Part shown: piece after piece, positions 1-16,244 of the stretch
Layout of the letters: the number at the start of each line of letters is the position of its first letter
How positions within the stretch are numbered: the first letter of the stretch is position 1
NCBI RefSeq assembly: GCF_000250655.1
Contig: NC_016935.1
Span: 6,280,001-6,344,000, forward strand
DNA: 64,000 nucleotides
Direction: 5' to 3'
DNA from: Paenibacillus mucilaginosus 3016
GTDB lineage: Bacteria; Bacillota; Bacilli; Paenibacillales; NBRC-103111
Made by a program: the position numbers and the translations under genes
Notes under the pieces: generated by a model
Seen by the model: only the letters and a program-made list of their open reading frames with translations
Databases searched by the model: none
Told to the model about the DNA's origin: nothing

Positions 1-2156
1 TCGCCCACGTTCGAAGCGAGCAGGTAGCGGATGAACTTGCGGATGTTCTCGTAGATGCCCCGGCCCTCTTCGATAGCCGATACAATGGTTGCGAAGTTGT
101 CGTCGCTGAGCACGAGCGAGGACGCCTCCTTCGAGACGTCCGTCCCGCTGATGCCCATCGCGATCCCGATATCCGCCGCCTTGATCGCCGGCGCGTCGTT
201 GACGCCGTCGCCGGTCATCGCTACCGTGTGGCCTCCGCGCTGCAGCGACTTCACGATCCGCAGCTTATGCTCGGGGGACACGCGGGCGAACACGAACACA
301 TCCTCGATGACCTTGTCGAGCTCGTCGTCTCCCATCGCGGCCAGCTGCTGGCCGTTCAGGGTGCGGCCGTCCTGCGGGAGAATGCTGAGCTGGCGGGCGA
401 TCGCCTCGGCCGTCGTCTGGTGGTCTCCCGTGATCATTACGGTCTTGATTCCGGCGCGGCGGCACTTCAGGATCGCTTCGCGGACTTCGCGGCGCGGCGG
501 ATCGATCATCCCCGTGAGCCCCACGAACACCAGCTGCGACTCCACCTCCCGCTCGTCCTCGCCCCGTTCACTCCCTTTCAGATCCCGGTAAGCCAGACCG
601 AGTACCCGCAGCGCATTCTTGGCCATCCCTTCATTGGCCGCCAGCACCTTGGACTTCAGCGTCGGCGTGAACGGGATCACCTTCTCGTCCCAGAGCACAT
701 AGGCGCACTGCTGGATGAGCAGATCCGGCGCCCCCTTCGTGCAGACCATCCGGCCTCCCTGGTGCTCCACGACCACGGACATCCGCTTGCGCTCCGAATC
801 GAACGGCAGCTCGTGGACCCTGCGGTACAAGCCGTCCAGGGAAGCGTGCGTCAGCCCCGCCTTGGCCCCGAGCACCACCAGCGCCCCTTCGGTCGGGTCC
901 CCCTTGATGTTCCACTGGCTGCCGGGCTCCTCGTCCTTTTTCTTCTTGCCGTCCGTACTGCGTTCTTCTTCATACAGCTGGGCATTGTTGCAGAGGACCG
1001 ACACCTGCAGCAGCCGGCGCAGCATCTGGTGGTTGCGCACGTCGATGCTCCTGCCGTCCCGCAGAATCTCGCCGTTCGGCACGTAGCCGTCGCCTGTCAC
1101 CTCCAGCACATCTCCGCCGAGCCACAGGTGGGTGACGCTCATTTTGTTCTGGGTCAGGGTGCCGGTTTTGTCCGAACAGATGACGGACGCGCACCCCAGC
1201 GTCTCCACCGACGGCAGCTTGCGTACAATGGCTTTGCGCTGAATCATCCGCTGCACGCCGAGCGCCAGGGCGATCGTCACGATCGCGGGCAGCCCTTCCG
1301 GGATCGCCGCCACCGCGAGCGACACGCCCGCGAGGAACATGCCGTACGGCTCCTGGCCGTGCAGGATGCCTGCCGCGACCACCAGCACGGTAAGCCCCAG
1401 GGCGACGATAATCAGAATTTTGCCCAGCTGCTCCAGCCGGTGCTGCAGCGGGGTCTCCTGGGCGTCCGTCTGCTGGATGAGATCGGCGATCTTGCCCATC
1501 TCCGTCTTCATGCCCGTGCGGATGACCACGCCCTTCGCCGTGCCGCGGGTGAGCATCGTCCCCATGAAGCCGAGGTTGCGCTGGTCTCCGAGCGGAATCT
1601 CCTCCCCGAGCAGCGCCTCCGTATGCTTGGCCACCGGCACGGATTCCCCCGTCAGGGCGGACTCCTCGGCGTAGGCGCCGTACGCTTCGATGAACCGGAC
1701 GTCCGCCGGCACGCGGTCGCCGCTCTCGAGCAGCACGATATCCCCGGGCACGAGATCCCTTGCGGGGACCAGCTCCACCCGGCCGCCGCGCAGCACTTTG
1801 GCGTTAGGCGCCGAGAGCTCCTTCAGCGCGCGCAGCGATCTCTCCGCGCGGAACTCCTGCACGAAGCCGAGAATCCCGTTCATAATGATAATGGCGATAA
1901 TCGTGACCGCATCGAGATATTCGCCGAGCAGCCCCGAGACGAGTGTCGCACCGACAAGCACCAGCACCATGAAATCCTTGAACTGGTTCAGAAACAGGGT
2001 GATCGGCGAAATGCCCTGCCCTTCCGCCAGCTCGTTCTTCCCGTGTTCGGCGAGCCGCCCCTGCGCCTCCTCTTCGCTCAGCCCTTGCGAGGGCTCGGTT
2101 CCCGACGTCTGAAGGATCTCCTGGACCGTCATGTGAACCCACGATTTCTGACTCAT
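1..2156 (-). CDS. Calcium-type P-type ATPase (C-terminus outside window)
   Basis: Cation pump of the P-type ATPase superfamily, SERCA-like PIIA group, which exports Ca2+ using ATP. The 718 visible codons show the N-terminal cation-ATPase domain, the actuator motif LTGESVPV (TGES), the membrane motif AAIPEGLPA, the phosphorylation motif [10 protein letters not shown], the nucleotide-binding motif KGAPD, and the hinge motif [18 protein letters not shown]. The last transmembrane segments run off the window edge after LLASNVG. The start ATG at 2156 (MSQKSW) follows a good GGGAGGG site. PEGLP is typical of Ca2+ rather than heavy-metal pumps. The exact ion is inferred, not shown. Confidence 0.93.
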
Positions 2157-2469
2157 CTGCTTTATCCCTCCCAATAGGTTGTCTAGGCTAAATGTATTCA
2201 GACAAGCCGGAAAATAGCACCGGGTACCGGCCGGGACACAGATCCGGAGGGAGCCGAGTGAGGAGCAGCGCAGGCAGGAACTTCAGGGCCTTGCGGGGCA
2301 GGAGGAAGCGCTTGCCTTAGCCTGTCTGTAGACGTTCTTCAGGACAAAATGACGCCCCCGCCTCTTCCGTTCTGCGGGCTTTCGGAGACCGCTCTTAAAA
2401 TTTTCTCAAAAATATGGCATGATAGGGAGTGGCGCAGATCATTTATCGCCAGGAATGGAGTTGTCCCTC
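2157..2469. other. Divergent intergenic region, ATPase / rqcH
   Basis: A 313-bp spacer between divergent genes. It holds a plausible sigma-A promoter for rqcH (listed separately). A short inverted repeat (TTGTCT near 2180, AGACAA near 2200) lies just upstream of the ATPase ribosome binding site. I see no open reading frame with a credible ribosome binding site and no recognisable riboswitch. Confidence 0.5.
2395..2423 (+). promoter_or_regulatory. Putative sigma-A promoter of rqcH
   Basis: TTAAAA at 2395-2400 and CATGAT at 2418-2423 are separated by 17 bp, about 45 bp before the rqcH start. The match to TTGACA/TATAAT is moderate. Confidence 0.45.
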
Positions 2470-4248
2470 ATGTCATTCGACGGTCTCGTCGTCCACTGTC
2501 TCGTCCGCGAGCTTCAGAGCCTCGTAGGCGGCAGAATCAATAAAATCCAGATGCCCACCGAAAACGACATCCTGCTGCAGGTCCGCGCACCGGGCCGCAG
2601 CGTCAAGCTTCTGCTCTCCGCCAACCCGACCTACCCGCGGGTGCATCTCACCGAGGAAAGCTTCCTGAATCCGAAGGAAGCCCCGATGTTCTGCATGCTG
2701 CTGCGCAAGCACTGCGAGGGCGGCATCATCGAGAGCATCGAGCAGCCGGGGCTCGAGCGGATCATCCACTTCGGCATCCGCCAGCGGGATGAGCTCGGGG
2801 ATCTCAGCACCAAAAAGATCATCGTCGAGATCATGGGCCGCCATAGCAATATCATCCTCACCGACCCGGGGGCGGACACGATCATCGACGGCATCCATCA
2901 CGTCACGCCGGCCATCTCCTCCTACCGGATCGTCATGCCGGGCAGTGCCTACACGGCGCCGCCGGAGCAGTACAAGGCGATGCCGCTCGAGGTGGCGGAG
3001 GGGCAGTTCGCCGCCCTGATGACCGAAGCCGCCGAATCGGCCGAGCCGGGTGACGGCGCCGCCCCCCGCTTCTGGGAAGGGGCGCTTGTGCAGCGCTTCA
3101 GCGGCTTCTCCCCGCTGGCCGCCCGCGAGCTTGTCCACCGGGCGTCCGGCGGCGGGACGGTCCTCGAACCGGCCACCGCTCCGGCCCGGCTGTGGCCGCC
3201 GTTCGCGGAGCTGATGCAGCGGCTGCGCGGCGGCGAAGCCGAGCCGGTGATCGTGGAGCAGACCGCCTCCGGCAAGGCCTTCTTCTCCATCCTGCCGCTG
3301 ACGCACATCGAAGGCGAGACCCGGCGGTACCCCACCGTGTCCGAGCTGCTTGAGGCGTATTACAGCGACAAGGCGGAGCGCGATACGGTCAAGCAGCGCG
3401 TGTCCGATCTCATCCGCCTGCTCTCCAACGAGCGCGCCAAGAATGTGAAGAAGCTCGAGAAGCTGCAGGAGACGATGGAGGACGCCCGCGACGCCGACCG
3501 CTTCCGCATCCTCGGAGAGCTCCTGACCGCCTCCATGCACATGCTCCGCAAAGGGGAAAAGCAGATCGAGGTGATCAATTACTATGATGAAGACCAGAAG
3601 CCGGTCGTCATCGAGCTCGATCCCCTGCTGACTCCGTCGGAGAATGCGCAGCGCTACTTCAAGAAATACACGAAGAGCAAAAACTCGCTGATCGCGGTGG
3701 AAGAGCAGATGAACCAGGCCCATGAGGAGATCCGGTACCTGGACACGCTGCTGCAGCAGCTCGCCTCCGCCTCGCTTCCGGATATCGAAGAGATCCGGGA
3801 GGAGCTGATGGAGATGGGCTACCTGCGGGCCCGCGGGCGCAAGGGAACGAAGAAGAAGGCGAACGCAAAGCCGGTGCTCGCCTGCTATACCTCCTCGGAA
3901 GGCATTCCGATCTACGTCGGCAAGAACAACACCCAGAACGAATACCTGACGAACCGGCTCGCCCACGCAGGCGATACCTGGCTGCACACCAAGGACATCC
4001 CGGGCTCGCATGTCGTCATCCGCAGCCCCGAGTTCGGCGAGAGCACGCTGCATGAAGCCGCCCAGCTGGCGGCGTACTTCAGCCAGGCCAAGGAATCCAG
4101 CGGGGTGCCTGTCGACTACACGCTGATCAAGCATGTCCGCAAGCCCAGCGGAGCGAAGCCGGGCTTTGTGATCTACGATCACCAGCGTACGCTGTTCGTG
4201 ACGCCCGATTCCGAGCGGATCAAGGCGCTGCCTGTGGCCTCCAAATAA
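2470..4248 (+). CDS. rqcH: RqcH / NFACT-family ribosome quality control factor (FbpA-like)
   Basis: A 592-aa NFACT protein, the bacterial Rqc2/NEMF homologue. In Bacillus subtilis RqcH binds obstructed 50S subunits and recruits tRNA-Ala to add C-terminal alanine tails that mark stalled peptides for degradation. The family was formerly annotated as fibronectin-binding protein FbpA. The NFACT-N domain (about 1-200, including KIIVEIMGRHSNI), a long central coiled coil (about 300-430), and the NFACT-R domain near 470-570 (IPIYVGKNN, TWLHTKDIPGSHVVIR) are all visible. The start ATG at 2470 (MSFDGLVVH) matches the family start and follows GGAG. An upstream in-frame ATG at 2419 is judged spurious. 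Confidence 0.95.
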   Translation: MSFDGLVVHCLVRELQSLVGGRINKIQMPTENDILLQVRAPGRSVKLLLSANPTYPRVHLTEESFLNPKEAPMFCMLLRKHCEGGIIESIEQPGLERIIHFGIRQRDELGDLSTKKIIVEIMGRHSNIILTDPGADTIIDGIHHVTPAISSYRIVMPGSAYTAPPEQYKAMPLEVAEGQFAALMTEAAESAEPGDGAAPRFWEGALVQRFSGFSPLAARELVHRASGGGTVLEPATAPARLWPPFAELMQRLRGGEAEPVIVEQTASGKAFFSILPLTHIEGETRRYPTVSELLEAYYSDKAERDTVKQRVSDLIRLLSNERAKNVKKLEKLQETMEDARDADRFRILGELLTASMHMLRKGEKQIEVINYYDEDQKPVVIELDPLLTPSENAQRYFKKYTKSKNSLIAVEEQMNQAHEEIRYLDTLLQQLASASLPDIEEIREELMEMGYLRARGRKGTKKKANAKPVLACYTSSEGIPIYVGKNNTQNEYLTNRLAHAGDTWLHTKDIPGSHVVIRSPEFGESTLHEAAQLAAYFSQAKESSGVPVDYTLIKHVRKPSGAKPGFVIYDHQRTLFVTPDSERIKALPVASK

Positions 4249-4718
4249 AGCGGCCTTTTCCGGGCAGTCCTGACGCACACGACCCAAGCTGGCCCCTCGC
4301 TCGGTATAAGAAAGACGGGCGGGGGCGGCATCGGGGGCGTACCGCCGCAGAAAGGTGAGGCATCGTGAGCAGGGGCACAGGCTCCTGCTGCCAAGCGTCA
4401 GCAGGCAGATTCAAAGCAGGCTGGTCCCAAGGGGGCCCGTTCCCGGATCAAGGGCGCATAACGCCGCCTCCAGGGCCAGGGGCTCCCCTTCGGCTGCCCC
4501 TGCGCTCCGCTGCCGCTTCCTGCCCAAGCGCAGGCATCCGTCGGCACCCTGCTGTGGAACACTTGCTCCGCTCAAAAGGCCGCTCGCCCGCGCTCCCACG
4601 TACGCCAAAGAAGCACGCAGCCCGTCCCCCCGGACGGCCGCGTGCTTCTTTTTTATGTCCATGCGATTCATGATGCTGTTCCTCCGGCTTTTCCTGTACA
4701 GCCGGCAGTCCGCCGGCC
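4249..4718. other. Gene-free interval downstream of rqcH
   Basis: A 470-bp GC-rich stretch between rqcH and the convergent merR gene. Apart from the terminator at 4608-4654 I see nothing convincing. Several open frames exist in both strands but lack ribosome binding sites and have shadow-like composition. Confidence 0.5.
4608..4654 (+). terminator. Rho-independent terminator, rqcH side
   Basis: The stem AAGAAGCACGC pairs with GCGTGCTTCTT, with an inner CCGTCC/GGACGG arm and a run of seven T on the plus strand. It probably ends the rqcH transcript. Confidence 0.75.
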
Positions 4719-5663
4719 TCAGCCGATCAGCCGCCTCATCTTCTGCACGGCCTCCTGGGCGTCGCCCGCCAAGGTGTGGACGACCTTCGTGCCCGGCAGC
4801 ACGGCATCCCCGGTCACCGAGCGCCCGCCGATGAACACCTTCGTCCGCAGCCCGAGCCCGCCGATCCGGCGGTCCAGCTCGCGGTAGAACGGAAGCGCCG
4901 CCTCCAGCAGCTCCTCCGAGGACGAGCCGAAGGCGAAGGCGGCCGGCTTCATCTGCCCGAGGCAGTCGAAGATCCCCTTCTCGGAGGGCGATGCCCCGAG
5001 ATAGACGATCTGGTAGCCGGCCTGCAGCATGAAATAGCCGAAGAACAGCACCCCCAGCTCGTGCCGCTCTCCCGGGGAACAGGCCGTCACGATCAGCGGG
5101 GTATCGGGAGAGCGGTGATACAGATTGCGGAGCGCCAGCAGCCGCTCCCGGATGAAGTGGCTGCCGAAGTGCTCCTGGTACTCCGAGATCTCCCCGCGTT
5201 CCCAGCGGTCCCCGAGCTCTACGAGCACGGGCGCCAGCACCTGGAGCAGCACAAAGTCCATATGGTGCAGCGCGAGCAGCTGGTCGAAGAACCGCTGCGC
5301 CCCGATCTGGTCCAGCCGCAGAAAAAGCTGCAGCAGGCTTTCCCGGTAATCCGCCGCTTCGCCGTTCGGCTGCTGCAGCGGCAGCACGGCAGGCTCAGAC
5401 TCAGGCTTGGACAGGGCAAGCCCGCCGGGCTCCGGCCCCATCGCTTTGAGCTCTTCGGCCGCGAGCCCGATGGGCACGCCTTCGTCGACCTTACGCTTCA
5501 GATACAGCAGAACCTCGATATCGTTCTTCGTATAGCCCCGGTATCCGTTCGGAAAACGCGAGGGCGATACCGCCCCGTACCGCTCCTCCCACTTGCGGAT
5601 CAACTGTGTCGATAAGCCCGTTCTCATCGACACTTCCTTGATGGTATACAATCGCTGATTCAT
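4719..5663 (-). CDS. MerR-family regulator with B12-binding domain, CarH-like
   Basis: A 314-aa protein. An N-terminal MerR helix-turn-helix (residues 5-60, YTIKEVSMRTGLSTQLIRKW) is followed by a variable linker, a helical cap (about 105-180) and a Rossmann-type cobalamin-binding domain (about 188-310). The cap has W154 followed after nine residues by E164-H165 (W-x9-EH). The Rossmann part has E199-R-H201-E-L-G204 (E-x-H-x-x-G). Both are signatures of adenosylcobalamin photoreceptors of the CarH/LitR group, which repress in the dark and release DNA in light. The ATG at 5663 begins the conserved HTH; an upstream in-frame ATG is less likely. The promoter carries three 11-bp repeats, suggesting autoregulation. 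Light sensing is inferred from motifs only. Confidence 0.85.
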   Translation of the reverse strand: MNQRLYTIKEVSMRTGLSTQLIRKWEERYGAVSPSRFPNGYRGYTKNDIEVLLYLKRKVDEGVPIGLAAEELKAMGPEPGGLALSKPESEPAVLPLQQPNGEAADYRESLLQLFLRLDQIGAQRFFDQLLALHHMDFVLLQVLAPVLVELGDRWERGEISEYQEHFGSHFIRERLLALRNLYHRSPDTPLIVTACSPGERHELGVLFFGYFMLQAGYQIVYLGASPSEKGIFDCLGQMKPAAFAFGSSSEELLEAALPFYRELDRRIGGLGLRTKVFIGGRSVTGDAVLPGTKVVHTLAGDAQEAVQKMRRLIG

Positions 5664-5689
5664 GAAGCCGACCCCCGAACCTTTGGTGG

Positions 5690-5722
5690 CCTCATTATAA
5701 ACCATTTACAAAGCTTATACAA
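5690..5722 (-). promoter_or_regulatory. merR/carH-like promoter with triple 11-bp operator
   Basis: On the minus strand TTGTAT (5722-5717) and TATAAT (5699-5694) are spaced by exactly 17 bp, a near-consensus sigma-A promoter. The same DNA is three consecutive 11-bp units: TTGTATAAGCT, TTGTAAATGGT and TTATAATGAGG. The first two fit the nTnTAnAn pattern described for CarH half-sites, and the third is weaker. A CarH-type tetramer binding three 11-bp direct repeats over the -35 would block this promoter. Confidence 0.65.
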
Positions 5723-5753
5723 GGAAGGAAGGATCAGCCAAAAGCCTGTGCCT

Positions 5754-8700
5754 TCAGGAGCTCAGCGCCGGCAGCAGGATCTCCACCGTGGTGCCGACGC
5801 CCTCCTTCGAGGAGATCTGCATCGTGCCTTGATGGTTCTCGATGATCTTGTACGACACCATGAGTCCGAGGCCCGTGCCCTTGTTCTTCGTGGTGAAGAA
5901 GGGCTCGCCGATCCGGGCCAGCTTGCTCTCGGGGATCCCGAGTCCCTGGTCGATGAAGGAGACCCGCAGTCTCCGGTCTTCCGTACGCTTCGCGCGGACT
6001 GTGATCGTCCCGCCCTTCGGCATCGCCTCGACGCTGTTCTTGAGCACGTTGATGAACACCTGCTTGAGCTGGTTCTCCACGCAGCTCACATACGGCAGCG
6101 GCTCGTCGATCTCCGTTTCGATCTCCACATTCGAGATGATCGCCTGCGTATCGAGCAGCATGATGACGTCCTGGAGAATCGAGGGCACCGACTTCGGCAA
6201 ATAATCGACGGCCTGCGGCTTCGCCAGCACGAGCAGCTCGCTCACGATCTCTTCGATCCGCTCAAGCTCCGCCGACATGATGGCCAGGTAGCTCTCGTTA
6301 TGCCCGCCGGTGCCCATCAGCTTGGTGAAGCCCTTGAGCGCCGTGAGCGGGTTGCGGATCTCGTGCGCGATGCCGGCGGCGAGCTGGCCGACGGCCGAGA
6401 GCATCTCGCTCTTGCGCAGCAGCTCCTCGGTCTGCTTGCGGTCGGAGATATCCTCGGCGATCCGCAGGTAATGCTGGGTCCGTCCCTCGCCGTCCTTGAT
6501 TGGCAGGAACCGCACCGACTCCCAATACGTCTCCCCGTCCTTGCGGCGGCTGTGCAGCTCGCCTCTCCATTCCCGGCCGGAGCTCAGGGTGCTCCAGACC
6601 TCGGTGAAGGAGACCGAGGAGGCCTGCCAGTCGTTGAGCTCCCGGAAGTGGACGCCGATCATCTCGGACTGGGCATGTCCGGTCACCTCGGCGAACTTGG
6701 GGTTCGCGTACATGATTATCCCCTCGAGATTGGCCAGCAGCGTGATCGAAGGGCTCTGCTCGATGGCGTGCGAGAGCTTCAGCAGCTCTTCGTTCGCCGA
6801 TTTGAGCTCCGTAATGTCGACGAACGTCAGCACGATGCCCTTGATGAAGTGATCGCCCGTCCGGTAAGGCAGCACGCGCAGCATGTACCAGCTGCCGCTG
6901 CGGCTCTGGATTTCCTTCTCGACCGGCACGAGGGTCCGAAGCACCGTCTCCGCGTCCTGCACGATGCCTTCGTACAGGAAATTATGCGAGATGTGCCGGA
7001 TCGGACGGCCGTAATCCACCTCGAGGAGATTGATCTCCCGGGTGATCGCCGGCGTGAAGCGCCGGATGCGCATTTCTTTATCGAGAAAAATCGTGCCGAT
7101 CTTCGTGCTCACCAGGAAGTTGTCCATGTCGTTGTTGAGGTCCGTCAGCTCCTGGATCTTGTACTGGTACTCCGTGTTCACCGTGACGAGCTCTTCGTTC
7201 ACCGACTGCAGCTCCTCGTTGGTGCTCATGAGCTCCTCATTGGCTGCGACAAGCTCCTCATTGGTCGCCTGCAGCTCCTCGTTGGACGTCTCCAGCTCTT
7301 CAATGGTCGCCTGAAGAGACTCCTCCGCCCGCTGCAGCTCCTGTTCCAGTTCGACGATCCGCTGGTTCACGTTGTGGTCCATATCGAACGCTTCGGGAAT
7401 CTGCGGGGCCGGCGGCGGCAGATCCGCATCCTCGAAGGTGACGAGCACGAGCCGGTCGAACTTTTTGTTTTTGGTTGAAAACGGCTTCACAGTAAGATTG
7501 ATGTAAGGCGACTGATCGGAATTATTCAGCCTGATGTCCTGGTAGTAGATCGTCCGCTGCTCCTTGCGTACCTTCTGCACCGCGGTGACGATCGCCACCG
7601 CCAGATGCGCCTCCACCATCTTGTAGATGTTCCAGCTCGGCTTGCCCCGGGCCAGCGCCAGATAGGGGTTGATGTTGCCGCTGAGATGGAGCACCTCGTT
7701 GTTCTCGTCGAGGACCATGCAGGGCGGCATATGCTCGTCCACGAAGGAGGTGTAGAGATCGTCGGGCTTGCGGTACGCCGGGATCTCCCTCAGCGTGGTG
7801 TAGCCTCGGCGCGCCAGCTGGTGCACCTTCGTGATGTCCACGCTGTCGCTGACCTCCACCGCACTCGGAATCGGGGACCCGGACATCCGGCTGCGCTGCT
7901 GGAAGATGTTCCACTTCCGGTCGAAGGCGTAGAACAGGGAGCTCAGCTTGCCCACCGTCTCACTCGGGCCAAGGAACATAAAGCCGTTCGGATTCAGCGC
8001 AAAATGAAACAAGGACAGCACCTTCTGCTGCACGTCGGACTGAAGGTAGATCAGCATATTGCGGCAGGTCACCAGGTCCAGGTTGCTGAACGGTGGGTCC
8101 TTGGTAATGTTATGGGGAGCAAACACGACCATCTTGCGGATGCTCTTGCTCACCTGGTAGTTCTCGCCGACCTGGGTGAAGTGTTGCTGCAGAAGCTCGG
8201 AAGGAACGCTCCGCACGGCGGATTCGGGATATACCCCCTGGGAGGCATACTCGATCGAATCCCTGTCGAGATCCGTAGCAAAAATCTTCACCGTGTAAGG
8301 CAGCTCCTGCCCCGAGATCAGCTCATCGAAAAGCATGGCCAGAGAATAGGCCTCCTCACCGGTCGAGCAGCCGGCCACCCAGATGCGGATGTGCCCCTCC
8401 CGCTTCTTGTTCTCGATAATGGCCGGCAGCACTTTGACGCGAAGGATCTCGAAGGCCTCCGGGTCCCGGAAAAAATGCGTCACGCCGATAAGCAGATCCT
8501 TGCTCAGGCTCGCCAGCTCGTCCGGCTGGTTCCCGAGCAGGCGCAGGTAGGCATCGGAGGTGGTGACGCCGAGCAGATTCATCCGCCGCTCGATCCGGCG
8601 TAAGATGCTGTTCTCCTTGTAGTAGCTGAAGTCAATCCCGCTTGCGTTCTTGAGCAGCTCAAGGAAAGACGGCAGGGACAGCAGGTCAAGCCGGCCGCTG

Positions 8701-9350
8701 CTGCCCGGGTCGCTCTCCCCGTCCTCCCACTCGATCTCCGGATCTCCGGTGGTCCACTCGATCAGGTAGTCGGCCATCGCCTGAGGGGTCATCACCTGGT
8801 CGACGATGCCGGTCAGACGGGCGCTGTTCGGCATGCCGTCGAACTTGGCCGTAAGCTCGTCCTGCACGATCACAAGCCCGCCGTGCTCCTTGATCGCCTC
8901 GACGCCGCGCGTTCCGTCGCTTCCCGTTCCCGAGAGAATCACCCCGATCGCCCGGCTGCCGATATCCTTGGCCAGCGAGGTTAAGAACATATCGATCGGC
9001 AGGTTGAGTCCGGTCGTCTGCCGGTGCTCGGTCACCTGCAGCGTGCGCCCGGCGATCGTCATGTCCTTTTTGGGAGGAATGAGATACACGCAGTTGGGGC
9101 GCACCTCCATGAGATGCTCCGCCTCATAAATATTCATGGATGTGTTCTTCGTCAGGATCTCGGCCATAAAGCTCTTGTAATTCGGAGACAAGTGCTGAAC
9201 GACAACGAAAGAAAGCCCGCAGTCGGGCCTCATATGGTCAAAAAACTGCTGAAGCGCCTCAAGCCCCCCCGCGGATGCGCCGATCCCGACGATAAATCCG
9301 CCGGGAGGGGATTGTTCCTGCACATCCTGTTCCGATAGAATGGTGCTCAT
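5754..9350 (-). CDS. CheB-CheR-PAS-histidine kinase multidomain sensor
   Basis: A 1198-aa protein, probably cytosolic, since I see no membrane segment. Domains in order: a CheB-type methylesterase (about 20-200; [12 protein letters not shown] with the catalytic Ser, [17 protein letters not shown]), a CheR-type methyltransferase (about 225-480; SAM motif [13 protein letters not shown] and NMLIYLQ), a PAS-like segment (about 530-640), a heptad coiled coil rich in NEEL repeats (about 655-735), two PAS domains (about 740-955), a HisKA motif ([10 protein letters not shown]) and an HATPase_c domain ending with [13 protein letters not shown]. CheB lacks its usual receiver domain, and no response regulator lies nearby. 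The ATG at 9350 is preferred over the in-frame GTG at 9374 because AAGAGG lies nine bases before it. Confidence 0.92.
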
Positions 9351-9415
9351 CTGCCTCAACCTCTTTTCCAGCACGGACGCGGCTTGATTTTGCAGCAGTC
9401 AAACCGTGACCTGGG

Positions 9416-9421
9416 ATTATA
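9416..9421 (-). promoter_or_regulatory. Extended -10 promoter of the CheB-CheR kinase gene
   Basis: The minus strand reads TTGCTATAAT, a TGn-extended -10 about 66 bp before the start codon. A TTGATG-like -35 lies 19 bp upstream. The rest of the divergent 9351-9599 spacer has AT-rich blocks (TATAGT at 9499, TACAAT at 9544) that may serve the plus-strand B12 gene, but without clear -35 elements. I find no second triple-repeat operator here. Confidence 0.5.
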
Positions 9422-9599
9422 GCAATTCGGCTGTGTTCTGCATCAAAACGACTGTTCATCCATTATAACCCTTTTTAGGCTCCTTGTGCTTTCTTTTTTA
9501 TAGTGTGAAACGGCTTCCCCGGTGGTAGAACCCGCGTTTCCGCTACAATAATAAGAGCGTCACGGCTTCGACTTCCCGACTAAAGAAGGTGAACTCCAA

Positions 9600-10268
9600 A
9601 TGAACTTTCACGCCGAACTCTTGGCCGAAACCCTGCTGTCGGGCGACTTCAAGGCTTCTTGGAGCCTGATCGGCAGCCAGCGGGAGGCCGGCAAAAATTC
9701 GCTGTATATATACACCCGGCTGCTGACTCCCGCGATGCGGTACATCGGGGATCTCTGGGAGCAGAACTCGGTCTCCGTCGCGGACGAGCACCTGGCTTCC
9801 TCGGTGTGCGACCGGCTCCTCACCCACTATGCGGCCGGCCGGGAGCCGCTTCAGAGCACGGCCGGCAAGGCCATGTTCCTCTGCATGGAACAGGAGATGC
9901 ACTTTCTCGGACTCAAGACGATCTCCTCCTACTTTCAGGAATGCGGCTGGCATACGCGCTTCTACGGCCCGAACCTGCCGCTCGAATACGCCTTGATCGC
10001 GGCTTCGAACTGGAAGCCCCAGGTCATCGGCATCTCGGTTTCCATGGTCTATGCGCTGCCGGCGCTGTCCGCTTATATCGAAGCCTTCGAAGCCCTCCCG
10101 CACCGCCCCGTCGTCCTTCTCGGGGGACGCCTCGCCTCCCGCTACCGGCTCCAGCCCCACGGTTCCCCCTCGACCGTCATTCTCCCCGAAATGGAAGATG
10201 TGCAGGATTGGATGAGCTCCTATGCCCGGGCCGGCGGGCTGCTCCGCTCCGAGAAAGGCTTAGGGTGA
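9600..10268 (+). CDS. Stand-alone B12-binding protein with photoreceptor motifs
   Basis: A 222-aa protein made only of a helical cap (about 1-80) and a Rossmann cobalamin-binding domain (about 88-210). W53 is followed after nine residues by E63-H64, and E99-M-H101-F-L-G104 forms the lower-ligand motif, so both hallmarks of adenosylcobalamin light sensors are present. There is no DNA-binding domain, so it must act on a partner. The stand-alone B12 protein AerR of purple bacteria, which modulates the repressor CrtJ, is a precedent for this architecture. The gene is divergent from the CheB-CheR kinase and seven bases upstream of a PAS-like gene, its probable partner. The start at 9600 follows AAGAAGGTGAA. 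Confidence 0.85.
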   Translation: MNFHAELLAETLLSGDFKASWSLIGSQREAGKNSLYIYTRLLTPAMRYIGDLWEQNSVSVADEHLASSVCDRLLTHYAAGREPLQSTAGKAMFLCMEQEMHFLGLKTISSYFQECGWHTRFYGPNLPLEYALIAASNWKPQVIGISVSMVYALPALSAYIEAFEALPHRPVVLLGGRLASRYRLQPHGSPSTVILPEMEDVQDWMSSYARAGGLLRSEKGLG

Positions 10269-10275
10269 GGGGCTG

Positions 10276-10860
10276 ATGGGAATGCAGGCCTGCCGCTTGC
10301 CGCTGCCTTACTTCCGCGTCAACGCGTCGCTCCGGATCCTCGACCGGTCAGACGAGGCGGAGCTGCTGTTCCCCGGGGCATCGGAGATGGCCGGGATCAC
10401 GGATGAAGGCTCCCTGGAGAAGCTGCGACGGTTCGTACGGCCCGGCAGCGTCACCCGTCTGGAGCTTAACTTCCTGTGCGGCACGGACCGGCGGCCCCAG
10501 CTCTTCGAGCTGCACCAGCAGTGGGAGGAAGAGAGCGCAGCGGCCCACCTGCTGCTCTGCCCGCTGCAGGACCGGCTTCAGCGCATGCAGGACACGATGG
10601 AGCAGCTGCGCCGGGATCTGCGCCAGCCGGGTGGAGCGGCGCCGCCGGGCCTCCGCCCGCTGAGCGCGGCACCCGCCCGGACTTCCGCCCCCTCCCCCGC
10701 AGCGCCGGGGGCCATCCGCGAGGCGATCCATGCGCTGGAGACCATCGAGGACCTGATCGGCATCATCCGGCCGGACATGACGGAAGCCGGCAAGGACGCG
10801 TATGCGGTTCTGCTGCTGGAGCAGGCCGCCTTAGCCAGAGGTCATCTGGAGCGGCTGTGA
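10276..10860 (+). CDS. Small PAS-like protein co-transcribed with the B12 sensor
   Basis: A 194-aa protein I cannot assign to a named family. The first 90 residues resemble a PAS fold: PYFRVNASLRILDRSDEAELLF, with residues in the usual positions of the first strand and helix. A helical stretch (about 90-120), a Pro/Ala-rich linker (about 120-150) and a final helix (about 150-194) follow. It starts seven bases after the B12 gene stop, so the two are almost certainly one transcript. The start could be the ATG at 10276 or the one at 10282. There is no kinase or DNA-binding motif, so an adaptor role is a guess from context. Confidence 0.6.
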   Translation: MGMQACRLPLPYFRVNASLRILDRSDEAELLFPGASEMAGITDEGSLEKLRRFVRPGSVTRLELNFLCGTDRRPQLFELHQQWEEESAAAHLLLCPLQDRLQRMQDTMEQLRRDLRQPGGAAPPGLRPLSAAPARTSAPSPAAPGAIREAIHALETIEDLIGIIRPDMTEAGKDAYAVLLLEQAALARGHLERL

Positions 10861-10965
10861 GCAGAGCCTGATTCCGGAACCCGGCCTTCGGCCCGGGTCT
10901 TGTCCGGGCGTGCAAAGAGCCCCCTTTTGGATACGAAGAAAACGGAAGATTGGATCAAGCAGCAA

Positions 10966-10999
10966 AAGACCCGAAGCCGGAGGCTTCGGGTCTTCGGGT
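10966..10999 (+). terminator. Terminator after the B12/PAS-like pair
   Basis: AAGACCCGAAGCC and GGCTTCGGGTCTT form a perfect 13-bp stem with a 3-base loop. The following T run is short (CGGGTTTTG). It lies between the plus-strand pair and minus-strand galU and may act on both strands. Confidence 0.7.
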
Positions 11000-11146
11000 T
11001 TTGCATCTTGGGATGAACCGGATATAAAAAAAGAACTACGGCGGATAAGGCCTCAAGCATGACGGAGCCGGCGGTGATTTCCTCCAACCGGGAGCCTCGC
11101 GTATGCTATCTGCTCCCTTGGGGAACCACGGCCTCGGCGCGCTTGG

Positions 11147-12022
11147 CTACCCGTTGATGCGGCGCTGAAGGTACTCGAGCAGCGGTTCCCGCAGCTCCTC
11201 CCGCTGCAGCGCCATCTCAATGGTCGCCTCGATGTAGCCGAGCTTGTCGCCGACGTCGAAGCGCCGTCCCGGGACCGGGAAGGCCGCCATCTGCTGGTAG
11301 CGGTTCAGGATGCGCAGCGCGTCGGTCAGCTGGATCTCTCCGCCGCGGCCCGGCACACTGTCCTCGAGAATGCCGAAGATGTCCGGCGTCAGGATGTAGC
11401 GCCCGATGACCGCGAGATTCGACGGAGCGGCATCCCTCTCCGGCTTCTCCACGAGATCCTCGATCGGGCGCCAGGCGGCTGCCCCCTGACCGCCGGAAGC
11501 CGGCGAGATGATACCGTACTTGTCGACCTCATCCCACGGCACTTCCTGACAGCCGATGACCGAGGCGTGAGTTTGCTCATGCAGGTCCATCATCTGCTTC
11601 AAGCACGGCGGCTCCGACTGGATGATATCGTCGCCGAGGAGCACGGCGAACGGCTCGTCGCCGATGAATTTGCGGGCGCAGAGCACGGCATGCCCGAGCC
11701 CGAGCGGCTGCTTCTGGCGGATATAGTGGACATCCGCCAGATTCGATACGGACTGCACGAGCTCCAGCAGCTCGTCCTTGCCGTTCATCTCCAGCAGCGT
11801 CTCCAGCTCCGCCGACTTGTCGAAATGGTCCTCGATCGCCCGTTTGTTGCGGCCGGTGATGATCATGATATCCTCAATCCCCGACGCCATCGCTTCCTCT
11901 ACGATATATTGAATCGCCGGCTTGTCGACGATCGGCAGCATCTCCTTGGGCTGCGCCTTCGTTGCCGGCAGGAAGCGGGTGCCGAGACCCGCGGCCGGTA
12001 TGATTGCTTTTCGGACTCTCAT
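11147..12022 (-). CDS. galU: UTP-glucose-1-phosphate uridylyltransferase
   Basis: A 291-aa nucleotidyltransferase that makes UDP-glucose for cell-wall polymers and glycolipids. The N-terminal nucleotide-binding signature AAGLGTRFLPATKAQPKEMLPI, the KPAIQYIVEEA segment, and the later VEKP motif match GalU/GtaB over the full family length. Its ATG overlaps the stop of the upstream PHP gene as ATGA once that gene's frameshift is corrected, so the two are probably translationally coupled. A GAGGAG site lies upstream within the PHP gene. Confidence 0.95.
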   Translation of the reverse strand: MRVRKAIIPAAGLGTRFLPATKAQPKEMLPIVDKPAIQYIVEEAMASGIEDIMIITGRNKRAIEDHFDKSAELETLLEMNGKDELLELVQSVSNLADVHYIRQKQPLGLGHAVLCARKFIGDEPFAVLLGDDIIQSEPPCLKQMMDLHEQTHASVIGCQEVPWDEVDKYGIISPASGGQGAAAWRPIEDLVEKPERDAAPSNLAVIGRYILTPDIFGILEDSVPGRGGEIQLTDALRILNRYQQMAAFPVPGRRFDVGDKLGYIEATIEMALQREELREPLLEYLQRRING

Positions 12023-12871
12023 GCTGTCGTTTCTCCTCTTCTGTTGTATAACTCAGTGACCACCTCAGCAGAAATCCGTCTGGCCCCCACCGGCGCATGG
12101 AAGACCACCCCGCCGCGCTCTCCATGGTAGTCGGAGCCAGCCGTCACAAGCAGGCCGTGCCTCTTCGCCAGCGCTTCATAATGCGCTTCCTGCTCCGGCG
12201 TATGGTCGGCGTGGTAAGCTTCCACGCCGGCCAGCCCCTCGGCCGCCAGCTCGGCGATCAGCCCGTCCTGGCTGTACAGGCCCGGGTGGGCCAGCACCGG
12301 GGCGCCCCCGGCCTCCCGGATCCAGCGCACGGCCTCGGCCGGCGTGATCCGCGGCGGGTTGACATAGGCCGCGGCGCCCTTGGCCAGGTAGCGGTCGAAG
12401 GCTTCCGCCATGTTCGCCACGTACCCCTTGCGCACCAGAGCGTCCGCAATATGCGGCCGTCCCACCGTATCCCCTTCCCGCTTCAGCGAACGGACGGACT
12501 CCAGCACATCCTCCATCGTCACTTCGAGACCCTGCGCCTGCAGCTTCTCGATGATCATCCCGTTGCGCCGGTCGCGCACCTCGCGGAGCCCCCGCGAGGC
12601 GTTCGAGGAAGCGCTCGTTCTTGTAATCGATCCAGTAGCCGAGCACATGGATATCCTCACCGGCACTTACCGTGCTGATCTCCACGCCGGGTACGACCGT
12701 GATCCCGTGCGTACGGCCCGCCTCCAGCGCTTCTTCCAGACCGCCCACCGTATCGTGGTCGGTGATGGCGACGGCGGAAAGCCCCGCCTCAGCCGCCAGG
12801 CGCACATTATCGGCCGGCGGCCGCGTGCCGTCGGATGCGAGCGTATGTGTATGCAGATCGGCGTATGCCAT
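12019..12871 (-). CDS. PHP-domain phosphoesterase (frameshifted in this sequence)
   Basis: A PHP-superfamily metal-dependent phosphoesterase, close to RNase AM/TrpH-type nucleotide phosphatases. The metal motif DLHTHTLASDGT begins the protein, followed by ITDHDTVGG and GVEIST; the second half shows VLAHPGL and AGSDYHG. The two halves lie in different frames. The switch is at the C5 run 12589-12593, where one base too many would break ERLAGLREVRDRRNG. Removing one base gives a normal protein of about 283 aa whose stop overlaps the galU start. The start at 12871 (MAYADLHTHT) follows AAGGGGG. Probably a sequence error rather than a pseudogene. Confidence 0.85.
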
Positions 12872-12968
12872 GCTGCCGTTTCCCCCTTTTTGCATCGTCG
12901 TCATGAATACAGCGATGGACCCGGATCCACGTTCATTGATGTTTCGTTCCCATCCGTACCGGAGCTTC

Positions 12969-13881
12969 TTACAGCCACTGGCTGAGATCGCGCTCTCTCA
13001 GGAAGCTGAGGAAGGTCACCGCCGAGATCGGCAGCAGCGTCGAACTGAGGTAGATGGCATGGAAGCTTCGGGCGAACGAGACGCCCTCCACCTGCTTGGC
13101 GACGAGCACGCCGAGCGCGGTCTCGTGCTTCACCGAAGACTGGGAGATCACCGAGATGCCGAGACCCGCTTCGACGGCGGACTTCACCGCTCCCGTGCTT
13201 CCGAGCTCCATCACGATCTTCAGCGAACTGAGGTCGCAGCCCGCACGCGCCAGCTCCTCCTCCATCACCCGCCGGGTCCCCGAGCCCTGTTCCCGGAGCA
13301 CGAAGGGGTACGGGAGCAGATCCTGCACCCCGATAGTCTCCTGGCCCGCCAGGGGGTGGTTCTTGGGTACGATGAGGGTCAGCTCGTCGCTCAGCACCGG
13401 CTCCGTATGGACATCCGGGTGATGCACCTCCGCTTCGACCAGGCCGAATGTCAGCTGGTGATTCAGCACATCCTCGAGAATCTGCTTCGTGTTGATGACT
13501 TTCATTCGATACCGAGATATTCGGGAACTCCTGCGAGAACGGGCCGAGCAGCCGCGGCAGCACGTACTCCCCCACAGTCAGCGAGGCGCCGAGATGAAGG
13601 CGGCCTTCGAGCATATGCGTGAACCGGGCCATGCCCGCGTCGGTCTCCTTCATGAGCGAGATGCTCCGGGAAGCGAAGGGCAGCAGCGCCCTTCCCGCTT
13701 CCGTCAGCTCCACCCGCTTCGTCGAGCGGACGAAGAGCTTCGTCCCGAAATAATCCTCAAGGGACTGCACCTGCATGGTGACGGCCGGCTGCGTCATGTG
13801 CAGCGCCTGGGCCGCATGGGAGAAGCTCCCCTTCTCCGCAACCGTGTGAAATATATGCAGTTGGTGAAAATTAAGCGCCAT
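12969..13881 (-). CDS. LysR-family transcriptional regulator (frameshifted in this sequence)
   Basis: A LysR-type regulator of about 303 aa, similar in style to CysL/YtlI regulators of Bacilli, but the target is unknown. The N-terminal winged HTH is clear (LHIFHTVAEKGSFSHAAQAL, MTQPAVTMQVQSLE). The effector-binding half (LPYPFVLREQGSGTRRVME) continues in another frame. The switch lies around 13505-13515, where deleting one base joins FPNISV to MKVINTKQILED. The start at 13881 (MALNFHQLH) has GGAGG eight bases upstream. The usual divergent target gene is not evident: the flanking PHP gene is in the same direction. Confidence 0.85.
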
Positions 13882-14040
13882 AACAGACATCCTCCGCTTG
13901 CTTGGTTTCCCCATTATAGCAAAAAACAAAGAGGCATGCCGGAAATCTCGGCACACCCCCTGAAGCTCCTAGTCCACCCGAACACGCGATGCCTGCTCCC
14001 CCTGCATGCTGGCCCCCGCCGCCGGACTTCGGCGCCCCTC

Positions 14041-14481
14041 TTATTTGCGTTTGCGGCTGTTCTTGATGAGCGTCATTCTTCTCGAATGCCGCAGCCATGA
14101 GTAATAGGATCGAAGATCCCTAAGTTCCATCGTTTCGGACATGCGCCCGAGGAACGTCACGACGATCATCTTGTATCTCGGCGGGGCCCCCAAGGGGAGA
14201 TCCTGCACGACTGGGGCGAACTCCGCCACCATAACGAGATCGTCATCGATCAAAAACACGTCCTCTTCATTCTTGTAGTACGTACGGATGCTGTCTGACT
14301 TCAGCTTATTCCACAAGAAGGCGGTAATATCGTGAAACCCGGTTTTTTCGGTCTCGACGCGGTCTGCCCAGCGGCTGCGTGCATGGTGAGTGACAACAAT
14401 ATCGGAGATTGGTCTGCCGCCGAGCACCGATGCAGTGCCCATGCTTTTTCTTTCCCGGCCGTTGAAACTGCTCCCTTGCAC
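14041..14481 (-). CDS. Conserved hypothetical protein
   Basis: A 146-aa protein I do not recognise. It is basic at the C-terminus (ending KNSRKRK), with predicted strands (DIVVTHHARSRW, DVFLIDDDLVMVAEF, YKMIVVTFLG) and no membrane segment or cysteines. The HHARSRW motif followed by an acidic strand vaguely recalls small RNA-interacting or nuclease-like folds, but this is not enough for a call. The GTG start at 14481 has AAGAGGG seven bases upstream. An internal ATG at 14442 (MGTASVLGG) is an alternative. Confidence 0.55.
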   Translation of the reverse strand: MQGSSFNGRERKSMGTASVLGGRPISDIVVTHHARSRWADRVETEKTGFHDITAFLWNKLKSDSIRTYYKNEEDVFLIDDDLVMVAEFAPVVQDLPLGAPPRYKMIVVTFLGRMSETMELRDLRSYYSWLRHSRRMTLIKNSRKRK

Positions 14482-14859
14482 ATCACAACCCTCTTCCTAG
14501 GAAAATGGTCCATTCGTACTATGTACACGAAATGTTCCTTACATCCATTTTACTCCATTCCCATAGATAATCAAATAAAAAAAACTTTAGAAAGGAGGGC
14601 GGGCGAAATTTATGAAAAGGCTGCCAATCAAGCAGCGGCGGGGAATTCAAAACCAAAGGCACCGCAAAATCCGGCGCTGCGGAAACGACAAAAAGGCTTC
14701 TGGGTCAGAAGCCGTTCATTCGACACCTTACTACAGAATTTCGTCCGTCTTCGGCAAGGCCCGGGACGCAGCACCCTCCTCCGGTCGAATCGTATACTGT
14801 ACAATCCCGGATAAAGGATGCCGCATGATCCCGCGGGAGCCGTCCGGAGCTCCCTCCCG
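14482..14859. other. Mostly non-coding interval
   Basis: 378 bp between the hypothetical gene and ylbG. It contains a perfect 8-bp stem-loop at about 14695-14712 (GGCTTCTG / CAGAAGCC). A plus-strand open frame at 14612-14872 has an AGGAGG 13 bases before its ATG, but its composition and lack of recognisable family make it doubtful. Confidence 0.4.
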
Positions 14860-15126
14860 TTACAAGGTGTAGAATCTTGTTTTGTCAGGAATATTACTGT
14901 TATACTCAGTTTTGATCTCGTTGCGGTAGGAACGCTCCACCTTCTTGACGAAAGGCAGCCGCTGCAGCTGCTTCATGGTCTCTTCCAGCCGGTCCGCATA
15001 AGTATACATGGCGGCGTAATGAAGCTTCTTAGAGATATAATGGACGCTGCCGTACTTCTCCAGCTGCTTGCCGGCCGCCTTGAGATCACTGAACCAGACG
15101 ATGATTCCGGTACGTTCGGTAAACAT
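14860..15126 (-). CDS. ylbG: YlbG-family protein (DUF2129)
   Basis: An 88-aa small cytosolic protein of the YlbG family, function unknown, usually beside ylbF in Bacilli. It starts MFTERTGIIVWFSDLKAA and carries the typical KYGSVHYISKKLHYA, VKKVERSYR and KTEY segments. The ATG at 15126 fits the family start; the longer upstream reading frame does not. Here ylbG and ylbF (ricF) are separated by an asparaginase gene on the opposite strand. Confidence 0.9.
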   Translation of the reverse strand: MFTERTGIIVWFSDLKAAGKQLEKYGSVHYISKKLHYAAMYTYADRLEETMKQLQRLPFVKKVERSYRNEIKTEYNSNIPDKTRFYTL

Positions 15127-15218
15127 GGATCCAACCTTCTTTCTGACGTAATGGAATCGATGAATGACAAGAATGCCATGCGTATGAGATGCAATGCGAA
15201 AGGATAGTGAATGCAAGA

Positions 15219-16244
15219 ATGCCGCTGCAAGAGCACCATTCGGAAAAATTGATCGAAGTCACCCGCGGACCTCTCACCGAGAGCGTGCACGCCGGCCACC
15301 TGGCCGTGGTCGATACGGCAGGCACCCTGATCGCCTCGGCCGGCAGCCCCGGCTATTACACGTATGCCCGATCGGCCGCCAAGCTGCTGCAGGCGATTCC
15401 TCTCGTAGAGTCCGGCGGAGCCGAAAGGCTCGGGCTGACCGAAGCGGAAACCGCGCTCTGCTGCGCCTCGCACGGCGGCGAGCCCCGGCACACCGAGACC
15501 GCCCGAAGCCTTCTTGCGAAAGCAGGATGCGATGAAAGCGCTCTATGCTGCGGCCCGCAGGAGCCGATGTTCGCACCGGCCGCGGATATGCTAAAGGCCG
15601 GCGGACAGCCGGCCACCGCCCTGCACAACAACTGCTCGGGCAAACACGCCGGCATGCTGGCTCTTGCGCAGATTATGGGTGTATCTATACATCAGTATAC
15701 CGATCCCGGGCATCCTGTCCAGCAAAAGATGCTGGCCGCTGTAGCCGACATGTGCGGGGTGCCGCAGAGCGGCATCACCCTCGGCATCGACGGCTGCGGC
15801 GTTCCCGTATTCGGCATGCCGATCTCGGCGCTGGCGCTGGCTTACGCCCGCCTGGGCAGCCCCGCCGGCCTGCCGGAGCAGCGGGCCGAAGCGTGCCGCC
15901 GGATCGTGGACAGCATCCGGCACCAGCCCTATTATGTAGCCGGAACCGCCCGCTTCGATACGGCGCTGGTGGAAGCCACCGGCGGGCGGATCATCGGCAA
16001 ATTCGGCGCGGAGGGCGTCTATGCCGCCTCGATCCCCGAGCTCGGCCTGGGCCTGGCCCTCAAGATCGAAGACGGCGCCGAGCGCGCCATCTATCCGGCG
16101 GCGGCCGAAGCGCTGCTCCAGCTTGGGGCTCTGCGCCCGGAAGAAGCGGAGAAGCTTGCGGCCTTCCGCCGGCCGCCGGTATATAACCGGCGCGGTGACA
16201 CGGTCGGCGAGATCCGCCCGGTCTTCACCCTTACCCGGCACTAA
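15219..16244 (+). CDS. L-asparaginase II-type (thermolabile family)
   Basis: About 341 aa, asparaginase of the Rhizobium etli type (AsnA / DUF1116-independent 'asparaginase II'), which hydrolyses L-asparagine to aspartate and ammonia. It is unrelated to the AnsA/AnsB fold. Characteristic segments include HLAVVDTAG, YYTYARSAAKLLQAIP, CCASHGGEPRH, NNCSGKHAGMLA, HPVQQKML, GIDGCGVPVFGMP and GTARFDTAL. There is no signal peptide, so it is cytosolic. The start is uncertain: ATG 15219 has AAAGGA at a long distance, and upstream in-frame ATG 15189 lacks a site. It ends nine bases before the convergent ricF stop. Confidence 0.85.
   Translation: MPLQEHHSEKLIEVTRGPLTESVHAGHLAVVDTAGTLIASAGSPGYYTYARSAAKLLQAIPLVESGGAERLGLTEAETALCCASHGGEPRHTETARSLLAKAGCDESALCCGPQEPMFAPAADMLKAGGQPATALHNNCSGKHAGMLALAQIMGVSIHQYTDPGHPVQQKMLAAVADMCGVPQSGITLGIDGCGVPVFGMPISALALAYARLGSPAGLPEQRAEACRRIVDSIRHQPYYVAGTARFDTALVEATGGRIIGKFGAEGVYAASIPELGLGLALKIEDGAERAIYPAAAEALLQLGALRPEEAEKLAAFRRPPVYNRRGDTVGEIRPVFTLTRH

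Follow-up and report, generated by a model that had tools for sequence, protein, structure and literature searches.

Photolysis of adenosylcobalamin (AdoCbl) is established for CarH, and B12 photoreceptors in general, photoglobin-B12 proteins and YtvA are already known. Beyond the AerR-CrtJ pair, few targets of B12 photosensors devoid of DNA-binding domains are known. Photocobilins are able to act on partners by contact (PMC10979010), and the PAS protein CrtJ is the target of AerR, which has been modelled on the helix linking the CrtJ PAS domains (PMC9144470). On the side of possible outputs, the specificity residues of KinA are TAGFQL and PAS-bearing orphan kinases are a signature of candidate Spo0 kinases (PMC6136694), while the phosphorelay itself is conserved in Paenibacillus (PMC12826061). 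The locus described here (Table 1) offers a concrete partner and a kinase for such a sensor, and its relatives point to a target of the stressosome type; the organisms concerned are spore formers and their kin. It lies in a stretch of 64,000 nucleotides (the whole of which we refer to as the window) from an 8.7 Mb genome present as a single contig. We read it, with moderate confidence, as an AdoCbl photosensor that signals via a PAS-like adaptor, the tail of which fits the output of the host: the stressosome (STAS tail) or an orphan KinA-like kinase (pseudo-DHp tail).

Table 1. Features of the B12-partner locus (window coordinates).
Feature	Position	Strand	Basis
CarH-like MerR + B12 protein, 328 aa	4719..5705	-	W-x9-EH and ExHxxG present
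CheB-CheR-PAS-PAS-HisKA-HATPase kinase, ~1200 aa, start codon uncertain	5754..9374	-	Pfam; divergent from B12 gene
Intergenic region common to the divergent kinase and B12 genes; promoters expected	9375..9599	.	position only
Stand-alone cap + B12-binding domain protein, 222 aa, ATG start	9600..10268	+	ORF call, Pfam, motifs
Partner, 194 aa, ATG start: PAS-like domain, coiled coil, pseudo-DHp hairpin	10276..10860	+	ORF call, profiles, conserved adjacency

The original prediction described the 222-aa protein as composed of only a cap and a B12 domain, and this is what the domain inventory returned: its only two Pfam matches (B12-binding_2, PF02607, residues 6-76, E 1.1e-11; B12-binding, PF02310, residues 90-180, E 1.5e-10) make up a four-helix cap plus Rossmann B12 architecture and, being the only ones, define a protein without a DNA-binding domain. 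No MerR-type HTH was found in it with Pfam or NCBIfam, and the NCBIfam CarH model scored it at 37 bits (cut-off 400). The motifs are located exactly as claimed (W53-x9-E63H64 in the cap; E99-M-H101-F-L-G104, corresponding to the lower-ligand motif E/DxHxxG), with W53, E63, H64, E99, H101 and G104 invariant across the 7 orthologues aligned (46-58% identity to the window protein); among the fetched loci, W-x9-EH and ExHxxG are present in every intact B12 copy that has a partner gene. The closest PDB chains are those of photocobilins (8jbs, 8j2w, 8j2y), with CarH and AerR lower in the list. The protein is thus predicted to bind AdoCbl between the helical cap and the Rossmann domain, and the CarH-type motifs, together with the photocobilin literature, suggest by analogy that it would sense light. 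A gene for ATP:cobalamin adenosyltransferase is encoded in 33/33 genomes of both partner types, and is common in control genomes too. Outside of these loci, a profile scan of genome contigs recovered only a distant B12 protein (Terasakiella), viral contigs yielded no relative with profile A3, and plasmids contained no partner gene and only distant B12 proteins. An origin from a phage or plasmid was rejected on the basis of these viral and plasmid results.

A different function for the same fold, namely that of the corrinoid protein of a methyltransferase system with an unrelated neighbour, appears scarcely credible. Although the protein has weak matches to corrinoid proteins, pyl_corrinoid (E 1e-4) among them, the curated methyltransferase corrinoid models are all far under cut-off and no methyltransferase gene was seen nearby in the window and the fetched loci, and on these grounds this candidate was rejected; moreover, the nearest structures are the above photocobilins, the Trp of W-x9-EH is kept, and in 32 genomes the genes alongside encode signalling proteins.

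The two reading frames are separated by 7 bases, as had been predicted, and the loss of their adjacency in other genomes had been set beforehand as the outcome that would refute the prediction. A family-level search recovered the partner in 5/104 genomes and close B12 orthologues in 4; order-level profiles (395 genomes) gave strong partner matches in 9 and a B12 orthologue (E < 1e-75) in 8, with the partner directly downstream of the latter in 8/8. At the class level (399 genomes) the B12 protein was present in many further families, and in 24 of the 29 class-level loci fetched the partner was again directly downstream, so that the pair is kept together in a total of 32 fetched genomes across Bacilli, contrary to the refuting outcome. 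Since the partner follows the B12 orthologue in all 8 genomes of the order that have the latter, and another 24 genomes of Bacilli contain the pair as well, we argue that the adjacency is not due to chance. One genome (G069) has kept the partner and lost the B12 gene. In G019 the B12 gene (L022:8523-9221) is split by a frame break (sequencing error or decay), with partner and kinase intact; in G073 a 62-aa remnant of the partner DHp end (L071:12554-12742) is situated beside a MerR-B12 gene, the stand-alone B12 gene and the CheB-CheR kinase being gone, as befits a decayed locus.

The partner was originally described as a small PAS-like protein of unknown family. The second part of this description holds (neither Pfam nor NCBIfam returned a match for the 194-aa protein), and the first rests on other grounds than family matches, as the N-terminal domain is below significance against PAS families in every member (best single-member E 0.024-0.037). 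The PAS reading is backed by the places in which this domain occurs (within kinases, and ahead of a STAS domain) as well as by the strand order in a weak model, making it likely that the N-terminal ~95 residues form a PAS domain. The protein is organized as a PAS-like domain (residues ~8-95), a coiled coil and a hairpin (residues ~144-193), after which it ends. The nature of this C-terminus, that of a degenerate kinase DHp hairpin, was missed in the original prediction. The order-wide partner profile also matched, in ~190 genomes, a region of Paenibacillaceae-type sensor kinases ending in QLLRPxLxELGKxEYA (always at profile positions ~121 to 200, i.e. DHp only, and mostly with E 1e-4 to 1e-7), and two complete kinases (from G182 and G131) matched it over almost the full length (E 1e-18 and 1e-24). 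The hhalign comparison of the partners with those kinases gave a probability of 98.3% (E 1.4e-14) for a set of 9 partners and of 98.5% (E 3.6e-15) for one of 18. The position of the phosphoacceptor His is occupied in the partners by R, K, L, N, E, Q or S (Arg in the window partner), the partner of locus L156 being incorrectly anchored in this comparison; a His found one residue after the expected site in the f17 partners is not conserved in others, and the partners do not retain TAGFQL at the six docking positions. No HATPase domain is present, as the protein ends after the hairpin and has no Pfam match. The low-confidence single-sequence AlphaFold model (pLDDT 45) depicts a two-helix C-terminal hairpin (144-164 and 170-193), and a PDB search with DHp-type partner profiles returned only coiled-coil-like chance matches. 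Taken together, the DHp homology, the lost His and the end of the protein after the hairpin identify the partner, at the level of sequence, as the remnant of a kinase: a PAS-like domain joined to a DHp hairpin (pseudo-DHp) that lacks both the His and the ATPase domain. An active kinase was ruled out because the conserved His and the ATPase domain are missing, and a DNA-binding protein because no HTH was found in the partner by Pfam, NCBIfam and further domain scans.

A longer partner (246-264 aa) with a C-terminal STAS domain (PF01740 in 13/14 scanned) occurs in 15 other genomes; the window partner has no STAS domain. Over the first ~113 columns the two partner types align with hhalign at 99.9% probability (E 4.7e-31), from which we conclude that they share the same PAS-like domain. 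Among solved structures, this STAS is closest to that of the Bacillus subtilis blue-light receptor YtvA (2mwg, E 1.4e-17), followed by RsbR of stressosomes. Both tails, pseudo-DHp here and STAS in other Bacilli, are protein-interaction output domains, which supports the earlier view of the partner as an adaptor and of an output by a route other than that of AerR-CrtJ. Every STAS-type locus (15/15) has a short gene, in most cases of 114-127 aa, ahead of the B12 gene. Profile A8 shows this gene to be homologous both to globin-like genes found in the f11 loci and to the N-terminal domain of a globin-like + B12 protein of 355 aa encoded in the genome of the window itself, and it weakly matches phycobilisome proteins (E 9.3e-5, one member) and photocobilin structures (E 0.035-0.4, profile); it is likely a photoglobin. 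This 355-aa protein, of photocobilin type (C1:445394-446461, equivalent to L025:7395-8462), is directly followed by the gene of a hybrid histidine kinase with a receiver, and the same pair occurs in L023 and L024. Separate globin-like genes were found only in f11 and STAS-type loci, and profile A8 had no match in positions 1-16000 of the window. Furthermore, 14/15 STAS-type loci contain a 101-aa ABM-family gene that is closest to heme-degrading monooxygenases (e.g. IsdI, IsdG), the product of which may make a bilin. The STAS-type operon can thereby be read as a photocobilin whose parts are encoded by separate genes, accompanied by what may be a source of bilin; the window locus has neither the bilin protein nor the heme monooxygenase. 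Three loci of genus g88 (L152, L153 and L157) show three short B12 gene matches per genome, the fetched copies having ABM and globin-like genes and no downstream partner. In G668 an ABM-globin-B12 operon lacks an adjacent partner, and a STAS-domain protein (L154:3143-3625) encoded upstream of it in the same orientation may take the place of that partner.

The distribution of the two partner types was compared with that of the stressosome. The stressosome marker Rsbr_N was detected in 14/15 STAS-type genomes as opposed to 1/18 DHp-type ones (per-genome Fisher p 2.6e-7), and rsbW_low_gc exceeded its cut-off in 15/15 and 1/18, respectively; counted by family, RsbW was present in 6/6 versus 1/7 (Fisher p 0.005). 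Genome G715 is an exception to this correlation. As the partner type follows lineage, and the B12 protein tree is compatible with one single switch between the types, the correlation may rest on few events. With this in mind, the pattern suggests that the output tail follows the output system of the host. Given that a YtvA/RsbR-type STAS occurs here in Bacilli possessing a sigma-B stressosome, the output of the STAS-type operons is probably sigma-B.

On the other side of the intergenic region lies a gene that was missed in the original prediction and that belongs to the module. A CheB-CheR-PAS-HK gene adjoins the pair in 18/18 DHp-type loci (the window included; in nine class-level loci only part of the kinase was within the fetched stretch), versus 0/15 STAS-type loci (fetched flanks of 1.5 kb). 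Across nine aligned loci the kinases are 56-71% identical, and their predicted specificity residues are TAGFKL in 9/9, that is, identical to those of KinA in 5/6 positions, with K for Q. The kinase has no receiver domain, and no adjacent response-regulator gene was seen at the locus; with these two features and its KinA-like docking residues it may feed the Spo0F-Spo0A phosphorelay, a connection that we propose tentatively. The kinase family is wider than the pair (43/395 order genomes at E <= 1e-250), and the top rank of the partner-bearing loci in the kinase profile search is circular, profile A4 having been built from them, and is given no weight here. Some relatives within the genus of the window keep the kinase family without the B12-partner pair. 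The CarH-like gene, which follows the kinase gene in the same orientation after 48 bases, is associated with it within this genus and is not constant in the module; it is kept in the same-genus genomes G064 and G073, where the pair is lost. In three f11 loci (L056:8625-8996, L057:9082-9456 and L058:6412-6894) a stand-alone globin-like gene heads the CheB-CheR-HK operon, so a split globin/B12 pair occurs with the DHp-type partner too.

The co-location with the kinase bears on whether the partner is instead a phosphotransfer protein (Spo0B-like), or one acting on another kinase in trans, with CheB-CheR-HK as a mere neighbour. The genome has 36 kinase matches, the DHp loop of the partner (RPxLxExGKxxY) is nearer to other kinases than to CheB-CheR-HK, and some partners have a His that is one or four residues away from where it would be expected. 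There is, however, no conserved His column, the Spo0F-docking TAGFQL is lost (for which reasons, along with the missing ATPase domain, a Spo0B-like phosphotransferase was rejected), and CheB-CheR-HK is a neighbour of every DHp-type partner and of none of the STAS-type ones; we consider this explanation quite unlikely.

A further alternative retains the partner and the kinase and changes the stimulus, with the B12 protein reporting on AdoCbl/corrinoid availability or on redox state. Cobalamin supply is a real variable and the AdoCbl-making enzyme is encoded; the apo/holo switch alone alters CarH assembly (PMC8221060); and the absence of bilin protein and heme monooxygenase from the window locus would fit it too. 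Against it, the CarH-type W-x9-EH is present in all intact partner-bearing copies and lost in three partnerless genomes (G263, G186 and G217, of another genus), where the kinase is accompanied by a divergent B12 protein in which W and EH are lost and ExHxxG is kept. The light motif and the partner thus appear to go together, within a small sample. Moreover, what is added in the STAS-type operons, namely a photoglobin-like gene and a YtvA-like STAS, is in both cases light-linked. On balance we regard availability sensing as unlikely, and favour light as the stimulus.

Under the light-sensing reading, the two genes would constitute the input half of a modular sensor. Light would break the Co-C bond of AdoCbl and change the shape of the B12 protein (as in CarH and the photocobilins), which in turn would directly contact the PAS-like domain of the partner or the helix following it, as the conserved adjacency suggests. 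The partner hairpin could then pack against or beside the DHp/PAS dimer of CheB-CheR-PAS-HK, raising or lowering its autophosphorylation and, through it, the input into the Spo0F-Spo0A sporulation phosphorelay. In the STAS-type Bacilli the same PAS-like adaptor carries STAS instead, and the sensor gains the photoglobin-like protein and the IsdG-like heme monooxygenase. Extended to the whole class, the proposal becomes more tentative still: a Bacilli-wide modular B12 photosensor (B12 plus bilin in its split form) with one adaptor and an exchangeable tail, in which STAS would lead to the sigma-B stressosome and pseudo-DHp to the orphan CheB-CheR-PAS kinase and thence to the sporulation phosphorelay. 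If true, vitamin B12 would tie decisions on general stress or sporulation to light across a large class of soil bacteria, and evolution would have arrived at the kind of swap, from a STAS to a kinase output, for which YtvA was used in optogenetics. Any effect of such a pseudo-kinase adaptor on the kinase is directly testable.

Our literature search (the photoglobin survey of Schneider et al. being outside it) returned no B12 protein paired with a PAS-like adaptor ending in STAS or pseudo-DHp, and no link of such a pair to CheB-CheR-PAS kinases. The closest described systems are the photocobilins (SasPcob, AbDPcob; PMC10979010) and the photoglobin-B12 proteins, which have the same kind of B12 domain (as judged by the nearest PDB chains); photocobilins regulate a partner by protein contact, as proposed here, and the STAS-type operons likewise have a photoglobin-like gene beside the B12 gene. 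Unlike in photocobilins, the B12 domain is here a separate protein followed by a dedicated PAS-like adaptor gene, the window locus is without a globin-like gene, and the f11 and STAS-type loci have split globin/B12 genes. AerR-CrtJ of Rhodobacter (PMC9144470) similarly combines a DNA-binding-free B12 protein with an adjacent gene for a PAS-containing partner, whereas the partner described here lacks an HTH, ends in pseudo-DHp or STAS and occurs without a photosynthesis context. With CarH/LitR the 222-aa protein shares the W-x9-EH and ExHxxG motifs (a CarH-like gene being found 4 kb away in the window), but not the MerR DNA-binding domain. The order of PAS-like and STAS domains in the STAS-type partners is that of YtvA (LOV-STAS, of the Bacillus stressosome), from which they differ in that the PAS-like domain has no LOV match and the chromophores would be on separate B12 and globin proteins; the window partner differs further in having no STAS. 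Finally, in comparison to KinA-E and other orphan PAS kinases (PMC6136694), CheB-CheR-HK has CheB and CheR N-terminal domains and K for Q in the docking set, yet is likewise a PAS kinase without a receiver that has 5/6 of the KinA specificity residues, and the partner, although without His and ATPase domain, resembles a kinase from a family of this sort in truncated form.
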